35,743 bases of DNA, taken from Geminocystis sp. GBBB08. GTDB lineage: Bacteria > Cyanobacteriota > Cyanobacteriia > Cyanobacteriales > Cyanobacteriaceae. The stretch lies in assembly GCF_016743215.1 (NCBI RefSeq), contig NZ_VRZC01000022.1, positions 1 through 35,743 of the forward strand, written 5' to 3'. The position numbers and the translations under genes are program-made. Positions 6,698 through 31,153 of the stretch are shown here, in pieces. The notes under the pieces are model-generated. The model saw nothing but the letters and a program-made list of their open reading frames with translations. It ran no database searches and was not told the DNA's origin. The number at the start of each line of letters is the position of its first letter. The stretch's first letter is position 1.

Positions 6698-7216
6698 TTA
6701 ATTTCTAGTTTTATGTTGACCATCTGCGATCGCCCGACTACAACACCAATCGTTCGGTAAAGTAGAAGGCCATCCCATTTCAATAGCTTCCTGACAAATA
6801 GTTGTTACCGTTAACTGACAATCAATTAATTGGAACTCCTCTTTTTGGCATTGTTTGAGACTATGTTTGAGAATGGAGTCGTCTTGAAACTCAATAGTTT
6901 TATTACACTGAACACAAACAATATGATGGTGATGGTGAGGATAAGGATGATTTAACTCATAATGTTTATGACCTTCAGCCAATTCTAACTCACGCAAAAC
7001 CCTCATTTTTGTCATTAATTTAACACTACGGTAAATAGTAGATAAACTAATATTTTCGCCGTCTTCTTCTAGTAATTTATGTAACTCTTCCGCACTGAGA
7101 TGATTTCCTTGAGGAAGATTATTAAATACTTCAAGGATCTTTTCTCTTTGGGGAGTCATCCGCCAACCTCTGGAGTTTAGCTTTTTTTTAATGGATGCGG
7201 TGGTATCTAAAGACAT
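6698..7216 (-). CDS. Fur-family metal-responsive transcription regulator
   Basis: A winged-helix DNA-binding domain comes first (RGWRMTPQREKILEVF, HLSAEEL, ISLSTIYRSVKLM). A metal-binding and dimerisation domain follows, with the HHHHH cluster, CVQC and IEFQDDSI. It is closest in style to cyanobacterial FurA, the iron regulator. FurA normally carries a second CxxC near its C-terminus; here that place reads TTICQEAIEMGWP, followed later by WCCSR, so one structural cysteine pair is altered. The frame continues to an ATG at 7243, but I prefer the ATG at 7216 (MSLDTTASIKKKL) because family members begin close to it. A palindrome at 7294-7308, about 80 bases upstream, could be an autoregulatory site. 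PerR- or Zur-like specificity cannot be excluded. Confidence 0.88.
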   Translation of the reverse strand: MSLDTTASIKKKLNSRGWRMTPQREKILEVFNNLPQGNHLSAEELHKLLEEDGENISLSTIYRSVKLMTKMRVLRELELAEGHKHYELNHPYPHHHHHIVCVQCNKTIEFQDDSILKHSLKQCQKEEFQLIDCQLTVTTICQEAIEMGWPSTLPNDWCCSRAIADGQHKTRN

Positions 7217-7293
7217 AAGCAATTTGGGGGGAAGACAAATCATTTGTTTATCTATGATACTTTTCTTTAGACCTTATTTGCAACTAAATTGCC

Positions 7294-7308
7294 CTTATTG
7301 AGAATAAG
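7294..7308. promoter_or_regulatory. Candidate operator upstream of fur-like gene
   Basis: CTTATT-GAG-AATAAG is a perfect AT-rich inverted repeat of 6-bp arms about 80 bases upstream of the preferred fur start. Fur proteins often bind AT-rich palindromes in their own promoters, so autoregulation is plausible. A single short palindrome in AT-rich DNA could also be chance. Confidence 0.3.
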
Positions 7309-7326
7309 TAGTAGTTAGGGATGGGG

Positions 7327-7376
7327 GATTAGGAATTAGAAATTAGGAATTAGGAATTTAGTTATCTAAAGATAAC
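7327..7376. repeat. AATTAGG tandem units and a GTTATC palindrome
   Basis: Imperfect 7-base units (aattagg, aattaga) repeat through 7327-7360. They are followed directly by the perfect inverted repeat GTTATC-TAAA-GATAAC at 7361-7376. Similar short tandem units occur elsewhere in this window (20275-20313, 25665-25690). Confidence 0.6.
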
Positions 7377-7459
7377 GTCAACGATTAGCTTGGAAATAAA
7401 TGAAGTTGTTGGCTAATGGCTGAAACGCTTATTCTGTGGTAAAAAAAGGCGGTATCCCA

Positions 7460-7676
7460 CTAACCCTCTTTTGTCAAACTCCGCAAACACTTGCAATTTA
7501 TAGATTCTGCAACTGTTGTAGATCAATCGATCGAGGTCATATTTAATAATATGAAATAAATCGAAACTTTAAATTAGTAAATTTGACTCTGTAGTATGCT
7601 TTAATCTTTAGTTATCAAGCTGTTTGAAAATATTTAATAATAGTTAAAATCGGAAACTGACAAAAGAGGGCTAATT
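7460..7676. mobile_element. MITE-like element A (~215 bp, TA-flanked)
   Basis: The left end (from 7461) reads TAACCCTCTTTTGTCA and the right end (7657-7672) is its reverse complement with one mismatch. Similarity continues inward to CAAACTCCG on the left and CGGAAACTG on the right. Both ends carry a terminal TA, as expected for Tc1/mariner or IS630-type elements that duplicate TA. The interior of about 170 bp is AT-rich and has no coding frame. I infer a non-autonomous element; no transposase of this family is in the window. Confidence 0.55.
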
Positions 7677-7810
7677 ACGTTATCAAAAATTCATTGGCCA
7701 ACAGGATCAAACATAAATTTCAAAGTGAGATAATTACTTATAAAACTTTTCTTTCTTTAACACCATCACCTATCCTGTATTCACCGTATCTCCTATTCAC
7801 CCTATCACCC

Positions 7811-8010
7811 ATTATCTACCTGAGTTCGATATAAAAATAGATGAGGGCTGACTTGGAAGACACGCAGACAGGCAGACAGGAAGATTGTATTTCTGGTGAA
7901 TGAATAAAATTCTCTCAAAGTACATCAAATATTGAGAATTTTTCTCCCTGTCCACTTGTCCACCTGTCTAGTTTTGATCATTTTCTTTATGTCGAACTGA
8001 GGTATTATCT
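7811..8010. mobile_element. MITE-like element B with 7-bp target duplication
   Basis: The 186-bp core (7818-8003) has 18-base inverted ends: ACCTGAGTTCGATATAAA on the left, and on the right the reverse complement of ACCTCAGTTCGACATAAA (two mismatches). It is flanked by perfect copies of ATTATCT at 7811-7817 and 8004-8010. Inner segments also pair: the CAGACAGG cluster with CCTGTC...CCTGTCT, and AAAATTCTC with GAGAATTTT, so the whole element can fold into a long hairpin. No coding frame is present. The right flank overlaps the guaB3 stop codon. A diverged copy is at 22885-23037 and a lone end at 31136-31153. Confidence 0.65.
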
Positions 8011-9172
8011 ATTTGCCCATGCCTAATTGTTGGGCTTTTTGATAAACTTTACCTTCCGTTAATAAAGAAGGAGCGATTACAACTTCCACTTCCTGCATTT
8101 CTTTGATATTTTTTGCCCCTAATGTACCCATACTGGTTTTTAATGCACCTAATAAGTTATGTGTGCCATCATCTAGTTTAGCAGGTCCTCGCAAAATTTC
8201 AGCAATCGTACCGGTAGTACCAACATTAATTCTAGTACCACGAGGTAAAACAGGGCTTGGAGTAGCCATACCCCAATGATAACCCCTACCCGGAGCTTCG
8301 GCACTACGAGCAATGGGTGAACCAATCATGACAGCATCTGCACCACAAGCAATACATTTACAAATATCACCACCTGTAATAATTCCACCATCGGCAATAA
8401 TTGGCACATATTTACCCGTTTCTTTGTGAAAATCATCCCTAGCCGCAGCACAATCAGCCACCGCAGTAGCTTGAGGCACACCTACTCCTAAAACCCCCCT
8501 AGAAGTACAAGCTGCCCCAGGGCCGATACCAACTAAGATTCCAGCTGCCCCAGCTTTTAGTAACTGTAAAGTTACGTCATAAGTAACACAGTTACCTAGA
8601 AAAACAGGCATGGGCATTTCTTCACAAAAAGTAGCTAAATCAAGGGGTGTTACCACTTGGGGGGATAAATGGGCAGTAGATACTACTGTAGCTTGAATAA
8701 AGACTAAATCAGCACCTGCTTCCCCTACTACTTTCCCAAATTGACTTGCACCCGCAGGAGTTAAACTGACGGCAGCAATGCCTCCTTTTTCCTTAATTTG
8801 GGTGATTCTTTTGGTAATTAATTCAGCTTTAACAGGTACACTGTATAATTCTTGCATTAAACCGACAAATTCTGATTTTCCAACGGAGGCAATACGGTCT
8901 AATATAGGGTTAGGATCTTCGTAACGGGTTTGGATTCCTTCAAGGTTTAATACTCCTAAAGAACCTAATTCTGATAATAAGACTGCCATATTTACATCGA
9001 CAACACCATCCATGGCACTAGCAATAATCGGAATTTCTCTTTCAATATTCCCCAGAGTAACCCTAGTATCAGCTAAAATAGGATCTAATGTACGATTACC
9101 AGGTACTAAGGCGATTTCATCTATACCGTAGGCTCTACGCGCTTCTTTTCCACGACCAATTACAATACTCAC
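8009..9172 (-). CDS. guaB3: GuaB3 family IMP dehydrogenase-related protein
   Basis: A 387-residue single-domain IMP dehydrogenase-type TIM barrel. The substrate loop with the catalytic cysteine is seen as GIGPGAACTSRGVLG. Other family signatures are PIIASAMDGVV, VPIIADGGIITGGDICK and GADAVMIGSPIARS. It lacks the CBS domains of ordinary GuaB, as in the shorter GuaB3 group found in cyanobacteria and actinobacteria. Its likely role is IMP to XMP oxidation or a related step in guanine nucleotide metabolism. The start is GTG at 9172. The stop codon (8009-8011) overlaps the flanking duplication of element B, so that element inserted at the very end of the gene without disrupting it. Confidence 0.92.
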   Translation of the reverse strand: MSIVIGRGKEARRAYGIDEIALVPGNRTLDPILADTRVTLGNIEREIPIIASAMDGVVDVNMAVLLSELGSLGVLNLEGIQTRYEDPNPILDRIASVGKSEFVGLMQELYSVPVKAELITKRITQIKEKGGIAAVSLTPAGASQFGKVVGEAGADLVFIQATVVSTAHLSPQVVTPLDLATFCEEMPMPVFLGNCVTYDVTLQLLKAGAAGILVGIGPGAACTSRGVLGVGVPQATAVADCAAARDDFHKETGKYVPIIADGGIITGGDICKCIACGADAVMIGSPIARSAEAPGRGYHWGMATPSPVLPRGTRINVGTTGTIAEILRGPAKLDDGTHNLLGALKTSMGTLGAKNIKEMQEVEVVIAPSLLTEGKVYQKAQQLGMGK

Positions 9173-10293: not shown

Positions 10294-10306
10294 CTTCCTT
10301 CCTTAC

Positions 10307-10942
10307 CTATCTTTGAACAGCTATGGCAATACCTTGAGTAATTATACGATGTTCTTGAATTTGAATTCGATGATGTAAAGTTTCTGAGGTGTCATCGGGT
10401 AAAATTGGTATGGCCGCTTGGATTAAAATAGGGCCACTATCTACTTCTAAATCAACTAAATGTACTGTACAACCTGTTATTTTTACCTTCGCTTTTAAGG
10501 CTTGTTCAATGGCATTAATACCTTTAAAACTGGGCAATAAACTCGGATGTATATTAATTACTTTTTGAGGAAAAGCTTTTAATAAAACTTTGGTAATAAT
10601 ACGCATCCAACCTACCATTACTACCCATTCCACTTGATGAGCTTTAAATACTTCGACAATTGCTTCGTCTAAGGCTTCTCGACTAGGGTAATCACGATGA
10701 TTTAATAAAACTGAAGGAATATTTAATTTATCGGCTCTTTCTTTTACTTTGGCATGGGGATTGTTGTAAACTAATAACTCTATTTGTCCATTCAATTTTC
10801 CTTCATTGATAGCTTGGGCGATCGCCTCGAAATTAGTCCCACTACCTGAAGCCATAACTCCCAATTTAATCGTTTTCTGTAACTGTAATTGCTCCCACGT
10901 CAAAGAAGGGGAAACTATAACGGTGGGAAAAGAATGATCCAT
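10307..10942 (-). CDS. purN: Phosphoribosylglycinamide formyltransferase PurN
   Basis: Transfers a formyl group from 10-formyl-tetrahydrofolate to GAR, the third step of purine synthesis. Clear signatures are VMASGSGTNFEAI (phosphate loop), VVMVGWMRII, the catalytic NIHPSLLPSFKG (Asn and His), and HLVDLEVDSGPIL with the catalytic Asp. The 211 residues include about 25 extra N-terminal residues compared with the E. coli enzyme. It is followed 13 bases later by ycf20. The ATG at 10942 is the first one with a plausible extension; an internal ATG just before ASGSGTN would remove the first beta strand. Confidence 0.95.
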   Translation of the reverse strand: MDHSFPTVIVSPSLTWEQLQLQKTIKLGVMASGSGTNFEAIAQAINEGKLNGQIELLVYNNPHAKVKERADKLNIPSVLLNHRDYPSREALDEAIVEVFKAHQVEWVVMVGWMRIITKVLLKAFPQKVINIHPSLLPSFKGINAIEQALKAKVKITGCTVHLVDLEVDSGPILIQAAIPILPDDTSETLHHRIQIQEHRIITQGIAIAVQR

Positions 10943-11004
10943 AATTGAATGAATAGTTTTGAATTTTAACTAATTTAGCATATTAACTAATCAAGAGCCC
11001 ATTA

Positions 11005-12249
11005 TTAATTCGGCGTTTTTGATTGATGGTAAGTGGGTGATAATGGAATAGTAAAGCTAAATTGAGATCCTTTGCCGATTTCTGACTTTACCCAAATTTT
11101 ACCACCATTTTTTTCGACAAATTCTTGACATAACAATAACCCTAAACCCGTTCCTGTTTCACCTTTGGTTCCTTCTCTGCTACTACAAGATTCTATTTTA
11201 AATAATTTTGCTATTTGTTTTGAAGCCATGCCCAATCCATTGTCAATAATATCTACTTGAGTGAATTGTTGTCCTTGATTTATCTGAATTTTTACTCTCC
11301 CGCCTTCTGGGGTAAATTTTAGGGCATTAGAGACTAAATTTTGAATGGTTGAATATAACATATTGCGATCGCCAAAAACAAAGCAAGGAGAAGGACTTTG
11401 AAGTTGTAAATCAATCTTTTTCTCTTTAGCAGTGGGAGACATAATGGTAATAATTTCTTGGCATAACAAATGAAGATCGACAGAGACGGGATTACACTTC
11501 ATTTTACCAGTTTCTAACATTGACCATTGCAATAGATTTTTAAGCAAATTAAAGGCATTTTGTCCAGAATGATAAATATCTTGAGATATATCTATGATTT
11601 CCTCTAATTCCATAGATTCAACACTATCTTTAAGTATTTCAGTAAAACCGAGAAGAGTATTAAAAGGTGCTTTAAGATCATGACTAATAATAGAGAAAAA
11701 TTTGTCTTTACTAGCATTTAATTCCTGCAACTCTTGAGAATAAATTTGTAATTTTTTAAAAGCAATTCTTAATTCTAGTTGACTAATAACTTGTTTTGCT
11801 AGAATGTTTAAAGCCTTTAATTGTTCGGATGTTAAATTTCTAGGCACGGAATCAATAGCACAAAGAGTGCCTAAAGCATAACCATCAGGCGTAATTAAAG
11901 GGGCACCAGCATAAAAGCGAATATTGGGATTTTGGGTTACAAGAGGATTATCGAAAAAACGTTCATCTTGACTGGCATCTTCTACTACCATCACTTCATC
12001 TTTAAGAATCGCATGGGCGCAAAAAGCTAAATCCCTTGGGGTTTCCGTTGCCGACAATCCTACTCTTGATTTAAACCATTGGCGATCTCGATCAATTAAA
12101 CTCATTAAAGCAATAGGAGTGCCACAAATAGATGCGGCTAATTGAGTTAATTCATCATAAGCCATTTCAAAATTAGTGTCTAAGATGTCGTATCTCATTA
12201 ATGCTTCGATTCGCTCTTTTTCATTGTCAGGTAATGGAGCGATTGTCAT
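11005..12249 (-). CDS. GAF-domain sensor histidine kinase
   Basis: A soluble 414-residue kinase. The GAF domain (about residues 25-160) shows [42 protein letters not shown] and [19 protein letters not shown] short coiled linker leads to HisKA with [13 protein letters not shown], so the phospho-acceptor is about His190. The ATPase domain has [10 protein letters not shown] (N box), DNGLGMA (G1) and [12 protein letters not shown] (G2). No membrane helices and no receiver domain are present, so it should act with a separate response regulator that is not in this window. The GAF type is the one common in cyanobacteria without an obvious chromophore cysteine signature; its ligand is unknown. Confidence 0.93.
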
Positions 12250-12340
12250 AAGTTGTACCCCTCTGATTACTTAAATCTAATATTATATTTATTTTAACAA
12301 ATACTGTTTATTAGCAAGATATTTTTGCCTTTGACAATTT

Positions 12341-12368
12341 TCATCTTTAGCACACCTAACTCATCAAG
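12341..12368. repeat. Dispersed repeat fragment C, copy 1
   Basis: The stretch contains CATCTTTAGCACACC and CTAACTCATCAAGA. It closely matches the stretch at 17387-17416 (CATCTTTCAGCATA, CTAACTCATGAAG), and its reverse complement partly matches 13657-13672. It lies in the 154-base spacer between the kinase and glycosyltransferase genes. It is probably the end of a decayed repeat. Confidence 0.45.
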
Positions 12369-12403
12369 AGCCTGATTGTTAAGTTATATAAAAGATTATA
12401 TTT

Positions 12404-13579
12404 TTAGATTTCAGTGCTTCGCCAACTTAATTTTAAGTTTAGCCAAAAATTCCAAAGAGTAACAAAAGCGATGGCAATAAAGTTAGCTAAATAACGATTT
12501 AAACTTAACATATTAAAGAAGAAATTTAATAATAAAACATTAATAATTAATCCTGCTAAACAGACAATATTAAACTTAATAAATCGCTTAATTTTTTGGC
12601 GTTTACTAGGTTGTTTTTTAGAAATATCTCTAAAAGTCCACGCATCATTCCATAAAAAATTATTAATAATTGCCAACTCTGAAGCGATAATTTTACTACG
12701 AGTTAAAGGTAAAGCTAAAGTAGAAGGATCACTTAATAAAAACAAAAATATCATATCAATAAAAACGCCACTAAAGCCGACTATTGCAAAACGTAAAAAA
12801 CGACTAATTGGCCATAAAGAAAATCTTAGGCGAATCAAATGATGAATATAATCAACATATTGTTTTTTTGTTACTTTACTTTCTCCTTCTTGACGTTCTT
12901 GAAACACATATCCAACTTCACTAAGCCAACGAATTTTACCCCTTCCTAAAACTTCGATTAAAATTTTATACCCTAAAGGGCTAAGATTACAACCAATTAA
13001 ACACTCACGCCTGACTAAAAAATAACCACTCATGGGATCAGAAACTCGTCCAATTACTTCAGGCAATATAATTAATCCTAAAGTTTGGGCACCACGAGAC
13101 AAAAAACGACGTAAAATACTCCAATCACTAACGCCTCCTCCTTCCACATTGCGACTGGCTACGGCTAAATCTGCACCTTTATTAATTTCTGCCCACAAAT
13201 TCAATAAGGTTTCAGGAGGATGTTGTAAATCAGCGTCAATAACTCCTAAAATTTCTCCCTTTGCCACTTGCCAACCTCTAATTACGGCGGTCGATAATCC
13301 TTTTTCTCCTATCCGACGAATAACTTTTAATGGCGGATATTTTTCTGTCAATTCTAAAGCTACTTTCCAAGTAAAATCAGGACTGTCGTCATCAACTATA
13401 ATTAATTCATATTCTTGGGGTGTTATTTTTTCCAATAATGTGGTTAATTTTTCGACTAAAATAGTAATATTTTTACTTTCGTTATAGGTAGGAATAATTA
13501 GGGATAATAAAATATTGTCGGTAGAAGAATCAATGCTTAAATTACCTGTGGGAGTTGACATTAAATTGTCTAAAGTCAT
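12404..13579 (-). CDS. Glycosyltransferase family 2 fused to GtrA-type membrane domain
   Basis: Residues about 25-260 form a dolichyl-phosphate-mannose-synthase-like GT2 domain. Visible motifs are LSLIIPTYNESKNI, ELIIVDDDSPDFTW (nucleotide-sugar Asp), VIDADLQHPPE (DxD-type metal site) and DPMSGYFLVRR. Residues about 265-391 form a four-helix GtrA-like domain: FAIVGFSGVFIDMIFLFLL, IINNFLWNDAWTFRD, FNIVCLAGLIINVLLL and the C-terminal NFIAIAFVTLWNFWLNLKLSW. Such fusions transfer a sugar to a polyprenyl phosphate at the membrane, for envelope glycan synthesis. The acceptor and sugar cannot be told from sequence. Confidence 0.93.
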   Translation of the reverse strand: MTLDNLMSTPTGNLSIDSSTDNILLSLIIPTYNESKNITILVEKLTTLLEKITPQEYELIIVDDDSPDFTWKVALELTEKYPPLKVIRRIGEKGLSTAVIRGWQVAKGEILGVIDADLQHPPETLLNLWAEINKGADLAVASRNVEGGGVSDWSILRRFLSRGAQTLGLIILPEVIGRVSDPMSGYFLVRRECLIGCNLSPLGYKILIEVLGRGKIRWLSEVGYVFQERQEGESKVTKKQYVDYIHHLIRLRFSLWPISRFLRFAIVGFSGVFIDMIFLFLLSDPSTLALPLTRSKIIASELAIINNFLWNDAWTFRDISKKQPSKRQKIKRFIKFNIVCLAGLIINVLLLNFFFNMLSLNRYLANFIAIAFVTLWNFWLNLKLSWRSTEI

Positions 13580-13914
13580 GAAAATATTAGGGAGATTAAT
13601 AGGCCATTAAATTATAAAACTTTTAGTCCCGATAATTGTAACTTGCTAAATTACGGCTTTTGATGAGTTAGTATCTGACGTTACGCAAAGAGTAATAAAT
13701 CAGGTTAAAATGACAAGATGAAATAAAAACTCCTTAAACTCTTTCAATCAAGTAACTGCCACAGGCTTATCATCTTGAGTCTTGTTAAAATAGATTTTCG
13801 GAAACCTAACTGGAATAAGCAGTTCAAGGATAAATATTATGGTTTCTTGACATTAGTGTCCGATATCCCTCGTATTTTGATTTCCTTCTGATTAAGCTAA
13901 AACCCATTTAAAAA
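13580..13914. other. Gene-free spacer with a repeat fragment
   Basis: This 335-base spacer lies upstream of the glycosyltransferase and downstream of the nuclease-fold gene, both on the minus strand. It contains TTGATGAGTTAGTAT (13658-13672), a fragment of dispersed repeat C, and a short GACA-TTAG-TGTC palindrome (13849-13860). I see no coding frame or RNA gene. Confidence 0.5.
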
Positions 13915-30947: not shown

Positions 30948-30956
30948 ATCACCTCC
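30948..30956 (-). promoter_or_regulatory. Strong ribosome binding site of the PucC-like gene
   Basis: GGAGGTGAT on the minus strand lies 3 bases before the ATG at 30944 (about 7 bases from the GGAGG core). It is the best anti-16S match in the window and decides the start. Confidence 0.9.
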
Positions 30957-31135
30957 GTTCGATAACACAAACTTTGAAATATAAGGGGTTGAGAACAAAA
31001 ATAGCAGTTATTTTTCGGTTTAAAAATAATAAAATTGAGTAAACAACACTAAAAAATTAATTTACATAGCGTTTAAATCTATTTTGATTATTTTTCCCTT
31101 TTCCCTCTTCTCAAATCCCCTCTCTTCCCTATAAT

Positions 31136-31153
31136 TTTATGTCGAACTGGGGT
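31136..31153. repeat. Lone right end of element B
   Basis: TTTATGTCGAACTGGGGT matches the right terminus of element B at 7986-8003 with one difference. The preceding bases are a CCCTTTTCCC-rich tract rather than the element interior. It lies in the divergent spacer between the PucC-like gene and the large kinase. A 7-bp hairpin (AAGATGC with GCGTCTT, 31171-31196) follows. Nothing else is seen in this ~300-base spacer. Confidence 0.6.

Follow-up and report, generated by a model that had tools for sequence, protein, structure and literature searches.

Introduction

IS982-derived MITEs are already known. MITECca01 of Cardinium cOegib, which derives from ISCca4 of the IS982 family, is a non-autonomous element of ~240 bp with IS982-type inverted repeats; the part of the source on which we draw puts its copy number at 169, mostly intergenic or within other mobile elements (PMC9769881). 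The IS982 insertion sequences themselves measure ~1 kb and carry a transposase, and ISNsp1, a member of the family from Nostoc, has ends starting with AC; its inverted repeats measure 16/17 bp and its target duplication 6 bp (PMC7335449, from the portion cited here). MITEs that hold tandem units are represented by BrickBuilt of Porphyromonas gingivalis, in which units of 23 nt are combined with IS5-like ends, according to the sections of that report used here (PMC4596501). Among the cyanobacteria there is Nezha, a MITE cited in PMC10969869.

Here we describe an element of 186 bp from Geminocystis sp. GBBB08 that, by its ends, appears to join the MITEs derived from IS982. It lies beside guaB3 in a stretch of 35,743 nucleotides (contig NZ_VRZC01000022.1, positions 1 to 35,743), referred to below as the window. 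The element resembles MITECca01 in its inverted repeats, in its non-autonomous nature and in the paucity of conserved bases beyond the ends. It differs in host phylum, in sequence and in its interior, which consists of arms built from 8-bp tandem units; moreover, intact parental copies are described from the genome that carries MITECca01, whereas the Geminocystis host holds a relic only (PMC9769881, in the part cited above). With ISNsp1 it shares the start, the type of inverted repeat and the short duplication, but unlike the IS982 insertion sequences it has no transposase gene. It resembles BrickBuilt as a MITE with tandem units, although here the units are of 8 bp, occur in both arms and stand between ends of IS982 type; with Nezha it has in common that it is a cyanobacterial MITE. 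The literature collection that we searched yielded no MITE of Geminocystis, and among the matches listed for the end sequence no title concerned an element of this kind.

Results

Anatomy of the element

A sequence-only reading of the window had described a hairpin MITE with inverted ends of 18 bases and a foldable interior, flanked by a perfect 7-bp direct repeat whose right copy overlaps the guaB3 stop codon by two bases. Each of these points was borne out (Table 1). The two ends agree at 16 of 18 positions; automatic repeat detection returned practically the same arms (7817–7835 and 7986–8004; 19 nt, 89% complementary). The segment 7790–8030 folds at -65.1 kcal/mol, with z -3.77 on the plus strand and z -3.48 on the minus strand; on either strand none of 200 shuffled sequences folded as well. 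No open reading frame of at least 80 aa is listed within 7811–8003, and 186 bp are too few for a transposase gene. The element thus combines what characterizes a MITE: it is short (MITEs are typically <300 bp), has inverted ends and a target duplication, is without a transposase gene and belongs to a set of dispersed copies. The assignment of the neighboring gene to guaB3 comes from a profile search (TIGR01304, 545.5 bits against a cut-off of 342.1).

Table 1. Coordinates of the element and of its neighboring genes in the window.
Feature	Position	Strand	Remark
Left target-site duplication, ATTATCT	7811–7817		Identical to 8004–8010
Left terminal inverted repeat, ACCTGAGTTCGATATAAA	7818–7835	+	First 17 bases as in the G004 IS982 element at its right end
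Left interior arm of tandemly repeated 8-bp units, AGACAGGC	7858–7884		Repeat search
Inner A+T-rich stem-loop	7906–7942		9-bp arms 7906–7914 and 7934–7942
Right interior arm of tandemly repeated 8-bp units, CCTGTCCA	7943–7969		74% complementary to left arm
Right terminal inverted repeat, TTTATGTCGAACTGAGGT; minus-strand reading ACCTCAGTTCGACATAAA	7986–8003	-	Sequence inspection
Right target-site duplication, ATTATCT	8004–8010		Includes two bases of the guaB3 stop (8009–8010)
guaB3 (GuaB3 family IMP dehydrogenase-related protein)	8009–9172	-	Stop TAG at 8009–8011
Fur-family regulator, next gene downstream of guaB3 (context)	6698–7243	-	PF01475, 135.7 bits

The number of 8-bp units in the left and right interior arms differs among copies of the element. 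Two further repeats lie close by: degenerate 8-bp tandem units (TCACCCTA) occupy 7781–7810, directly outside the left duplication, and the heptamer ATTAGGA stands in tandem in 4.4 copies at 7328–7358.

A repeat family in the host and its relatives

The 12-bp end motif is abundant. With up to one mismatch it occurs 114 times in the host draft (55 + 59), compared to 8 times (3 + 5) for the reversed control; exact matches in the closed genome of a congener, G004, number 184 (98 + 86), with 0 + 1 for the control. A DNA search of the host genome with the whole element gives six matches, one of them the element itself; the next best is partial and 82% identical. DNA-level matches were found in five of the 60 genomes searched, the host counted, and the match in G009 spans 31 bases only. 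When one mismatch is allowed, 13 of 15 genomes of the family, the host again among them, contain the 17-bp end; six of the 13 hold 54–159 occurrences and the other seven 1–15. A search of plasmids with the element returned a single match, at 74%, from Geminocystis sp. NIES-3708. The window itself contains a second, degenerate element of 203 bp (30951–31153). Its ends, ACCTCCGTTCGA and ACCCCAGTTCGA, are related and have one mismatch apiece; no target duplication was seen at this element.

Many paired ends are flanked by duplications of their own. Within the first 1.2 Mb of G004 perfect duplications of 6–8 bp border 15 of 20 paired elements, while in a null model of 20,000 random pairs such a duplication arises in 0.105% of cases. 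Extending the sample to 2.4 Mb added nine of 17, giving 24 duplicated elements among 37; the other 13 pairs are without a perfect duplication of this length, and many end motifs in G004 are unpaired. Across genomes, our locus list comprises 47 pairs, some of them nested, and 21 of these have perfect duplications of 6–8 bp. Besides the window copy, three host pairs (L004, L032 and L034) carry perfect duplications of 6–7 bp and four (L012, L014, L029 and L038) carry duplications with one mismatch. Taken together, the excess of end motifs in the host and the frequency of duplications at G004 pairs lead us to reject chance as the explanation for the window element.

Comparison of the window copy with 38 elements from G004 revealed 16 that are 95.2–97.8% identical to it over 186 aligned positions with gaps ignored; the remaining 22 range from 48 to 89%. 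With gaps counted, the 13 best G004 matches have BLAST identities of 89–96%. Ten of 12 G004 copies compared share seven differences from the window copy and show none among themselves at those positions. Genes are less alike: guaB3 is 85% identical between host and G004, and the main matches of window positions 10300–13600 in G004 are 74–82% identical. Copies that are 95–98% identical in genomes whose genes are 74–85% identical suggest movement after the species had split. From these identities we infer a spread that postdates the split and would most simply be ascribed to horizontal transfer, whether of the copy or of its source.

IS982 as the likely mover

The sequence-only reading had recommended a search for full-length transposases with the same ends. 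One such element, its ends nearly identical to those of the MITE, exists in G004 (L096:976–2234): it is 1,259 bp long, has the ends GCCTGAGTTCGATATAA and ACCTGAGTTCGATATAA, and contains an open transposase frame of 298 aa with a TTG start. The stop-to-stop frame of 305 residues scores 250.8 bits against NF033520 (IS982; cut-off 130) and 229.7 against PF13612. Its ACCTGAGTTCGATATAA end is identical to the left end of the MITE at 17 of 17 bases, and in an alignment of the left ends of MITE and IS982 element 22 of 24 columns agree, among them those of AAAATAG. At its right end the MITE differs from the IS982 ends at two of 17 positions. Beyond the ends and the AAAATAG just inside the left end, no convincing BLAST match between the two interiors was obtained. 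No target duplication is visible at this IS982 copy, whose left end starts with GCC.

In the host itself, a draft of 325 contigs, neither PF13612 nor the protein search found an intact IS982 transposase. A decayed IS982 transposase with six stops (L237; G000:C145:2141–2458) has an element end with one mismatch nearby. Given these six stops the host seems to be without a working enzyme, with the reserve that a draft in 325 contigs imposes. Among the four genomes searched with PF13612, IS982-type transposases were found in G001, G003 and G004. The protein search of nine genomes gave IS982 matches in all nine, from short fragments up to a full frame, and the single full-length open copy was that of G004.

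The ends were examined at 14 IS982 loci from the nine-genome search. The 17-bp end occurs near IS982 pieces at two loci in G009 (one end each) and two in G004, in addition to the host relic with its mismatch. More distant IS982 copies (53–55% identity) in G001, G003 and G008, and one fragment in G011, have ACCTCAGTTTTGGATAA instead, whereas four fragments – L236, L244 (G002), L250 (G009) and L239 (G011) – have neither end type beside them. As the 17-bp end accompanies the closer IS982 pieces and ACCTCAGTTTTGGATAA the distant ones, end and transposase vary together. A comparison of the IS982 protein with genome contigs gave five loci; among three whose ends were examined, one showed no clear end and the other two bore ends that were related without being identical. 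Relatives of the transposase occur in 1,131 plasmid records, 1,129 of them at <60% identity.

Two other G004 loci deserve mention. A 351-bp IS982 remnant (L100:1366–1716) is flanked by two element ends, one with two mismatches, and is possibly an early stage of MITE formation. A candidate autonomous element with ends 1.5 kb apart (944598–946130) was rejected, as the longest frame within it, of 350 codons, resembles peptide chain release factor 2 and not a transposase.

Both ends of the window element begin with ACCT, fitting the AC start that 57 of the 69 listed IS982 members display in the portion of the survey consulted (PMC7335449). Set by eye against the IS982 pattern AC(N)6T(N)5TT given there, AC, T9 and T15 fit and position 16 is A instead of T (PMC7335449). 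An IS982 transposase is the likely mover of the element, judging by the G004 IS982 element with its open frame and nearly identical ends. It is conceivable that elements with ACCTSAGTTCGA ends are mobilized by a transposase of another family, their resemblance to IS982 ends being coincidental or secondary: no intact insertion sequence with such ends was found in the host, and a single open full-length copy is present in G004. Such a coincidence would have to produce identity at 17 of 17 bases and its recurrence beside IS982 pieces at two loci in G009 and, in a version with one mismatch, in the host. The duplications of 6–8 bp also agree with the 6 bp of cyanobacterial ISNsp1, in a family whose duplications vary widely according to the portion of the survey cited (PMC7335449). 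We consider a different mover very improbable.

Structure and termination

Another way to account for the hairpin is as a domesticated guaB3 terminator, or some other RNA structure under selection, and not simply as a mobile element. The strong fold on both strands, the position next to the guaB3 stop and the recurrence of G004 elements at stops all speak for such a role, and the sequence-only reading had suggested that the insert may now terminate guaB3. The data do not support this. A consensus scan for intrinsic terminators with loops of 3–8 bases found none on the guaB3 strand between 7240 and 8100, and by eye the T-rich stretch that follows the strong stem sits on the opposite strand. Across 13 sequences, compensatory change on both sides is seen in only two of 49 consensus pairs, and the covariation term is -0.63 kcal/mol. 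No Rfam match falls inside the element; the only match in 7200–8200 (E ≤1) is to a nematode snoRNA model outside it, which scores 17.7 bits where the gathering score is 35. Moreover, the element is missing after guaB3 in all 11 relatives compared. A selected RNA role for the hairpin is accordingly given little credence here.

The guaB3 site in relatives

These 11 relatives comprise four of the genus and seven of the family. An empty site with a single ATTATCT had been put forward as proof of insertion: the comparison showed that no relative has the insert at guaB3, but alignment of the guaB3 3' flanks breaks off at the stop codon or a few bases past it. In G002, where the guaB3 alignment runs ~10 bases past the stop, the site is suggestive of an empty one at most; that genome has no DNA-level copy of the element yet has seven end-like sites. 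The converse pattern, in which all relatives would share the arrangement and have no copies elsewhere, is not what we found, as none of the 11 has the insert at guaB3 and G004 holds many copies elsewhere. Additional element-like ends lie 303–622 bp downstream of the guaB3 stop in G008 (L072).

An alternative is that the element was present at guaB3 in the ancestor and was later lost or eroded in the relatives. Some traces could be read in this way: in G008 the guaB3 stop is followed after 8 bp by an element-like end (one mismatch) and, ~300–490 bp downstream, by a pair of such ends with a 7-bp duplication that has one mismatch; G001, G011 and G012 each show one end-like site (1–2 mismatches) 255–493 bp downstream; and in G004 (L079) a tandem array of GACAGGTG, resembling the MITE interior, directly follows the stop. 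The 700 bp downstream of guaB3 in G004 hold no end motif with up to two mismatches. No remnant in any relative corresponds to the window element with its ATTATCT duplication, and identities of 95–98% to G004 copies located elsewhere exceed the neutral expectation at gene divergences of 15–26%, making vertical descent very improbable.

Elements and stop codons

The sequence-only reading held that the element had landed at the last position that spares the gene. In G004 this does not strictly hold: two insertions there cut within TAG, and the first A of the element completes TAA. Since this first base restores the stop, insertion within the codon would leave the protein unchanged. Altogether four of the 24 duplicated G004 elements overlap the stop codons of open frames (293–799 codons), and one falls within a called ORF.

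In the first 1.2 Mb of G004, five of 20 elements lie ≤15 bp from a stop (null 6.6%) and none of 20 within that distance of a start (null 6.5%). The five elements near stops led us to take a larger sample. Expressed in terms of empty sites, ≤10 bp from a stop or overlapping it, the counts are 5/15 for the first 1.2 Mb and 1/9 for the second; the second sample alone did not replicate the excess (P 0.49). With thresholds chosen post hoc, and on G004 stretches picked after the positions of end motifs were known, the pooled figures are 6/24 near stops against 7.1% expected (binomial P 0.006) and 4/24 overlapping stops against 2.9% (P 0.005), under a null model that ignores selection against promoter hits and uses genes called by simple ORF rules. 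There is thus a modest, post hoc excess at stops over random intergenic targets. That the family is actually suited to stops, because its transposase would favor A+T-rich targets and its first A converts a cut TA^G to TAA, is a speculation that we regard as doubtful.

Discussion

We are confident that the insert is a MITE with IS982-type ends that entered the guaB3 stop with duplication of 7 bp, probably moved in trans by an IS982 enzyme. The proposal that it moved recently is strengthened by the duplications that other copies have of their own, by its absence from guaB3 in all 11 relatives, by its near-identity to many G004 copies and by the IS982 element with matching ends. The events may be pictured as follows. 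An IS982-family transposase, acting in trans, would recognize the ~17-bp ACCTSAGTTCGAYATAA ends; the element would then enter a 7-bp target, AGATAAT in the sense of guaB3, that overlaps the guaB3 stop, and the target would be duplicated in the process. As the final two bases of TAG were part of the target, the stop stayed intact, which would make the insertion close to neutral. By this reasoning the insert probably has no strong effect on guaB3.

The finding adds no new class of system. It provides a MITE family in a cyanobacterial genus – recently active, apparently across species, and with concrete insertion sites – for which a likely transposase, IS982, can be named. If landing on stops proved to be a true property of the family, it would let these elements build up at gene ends as nearly harmless parasites; the guaB3 insert offers a small test case for the survival of short elements in such positions.
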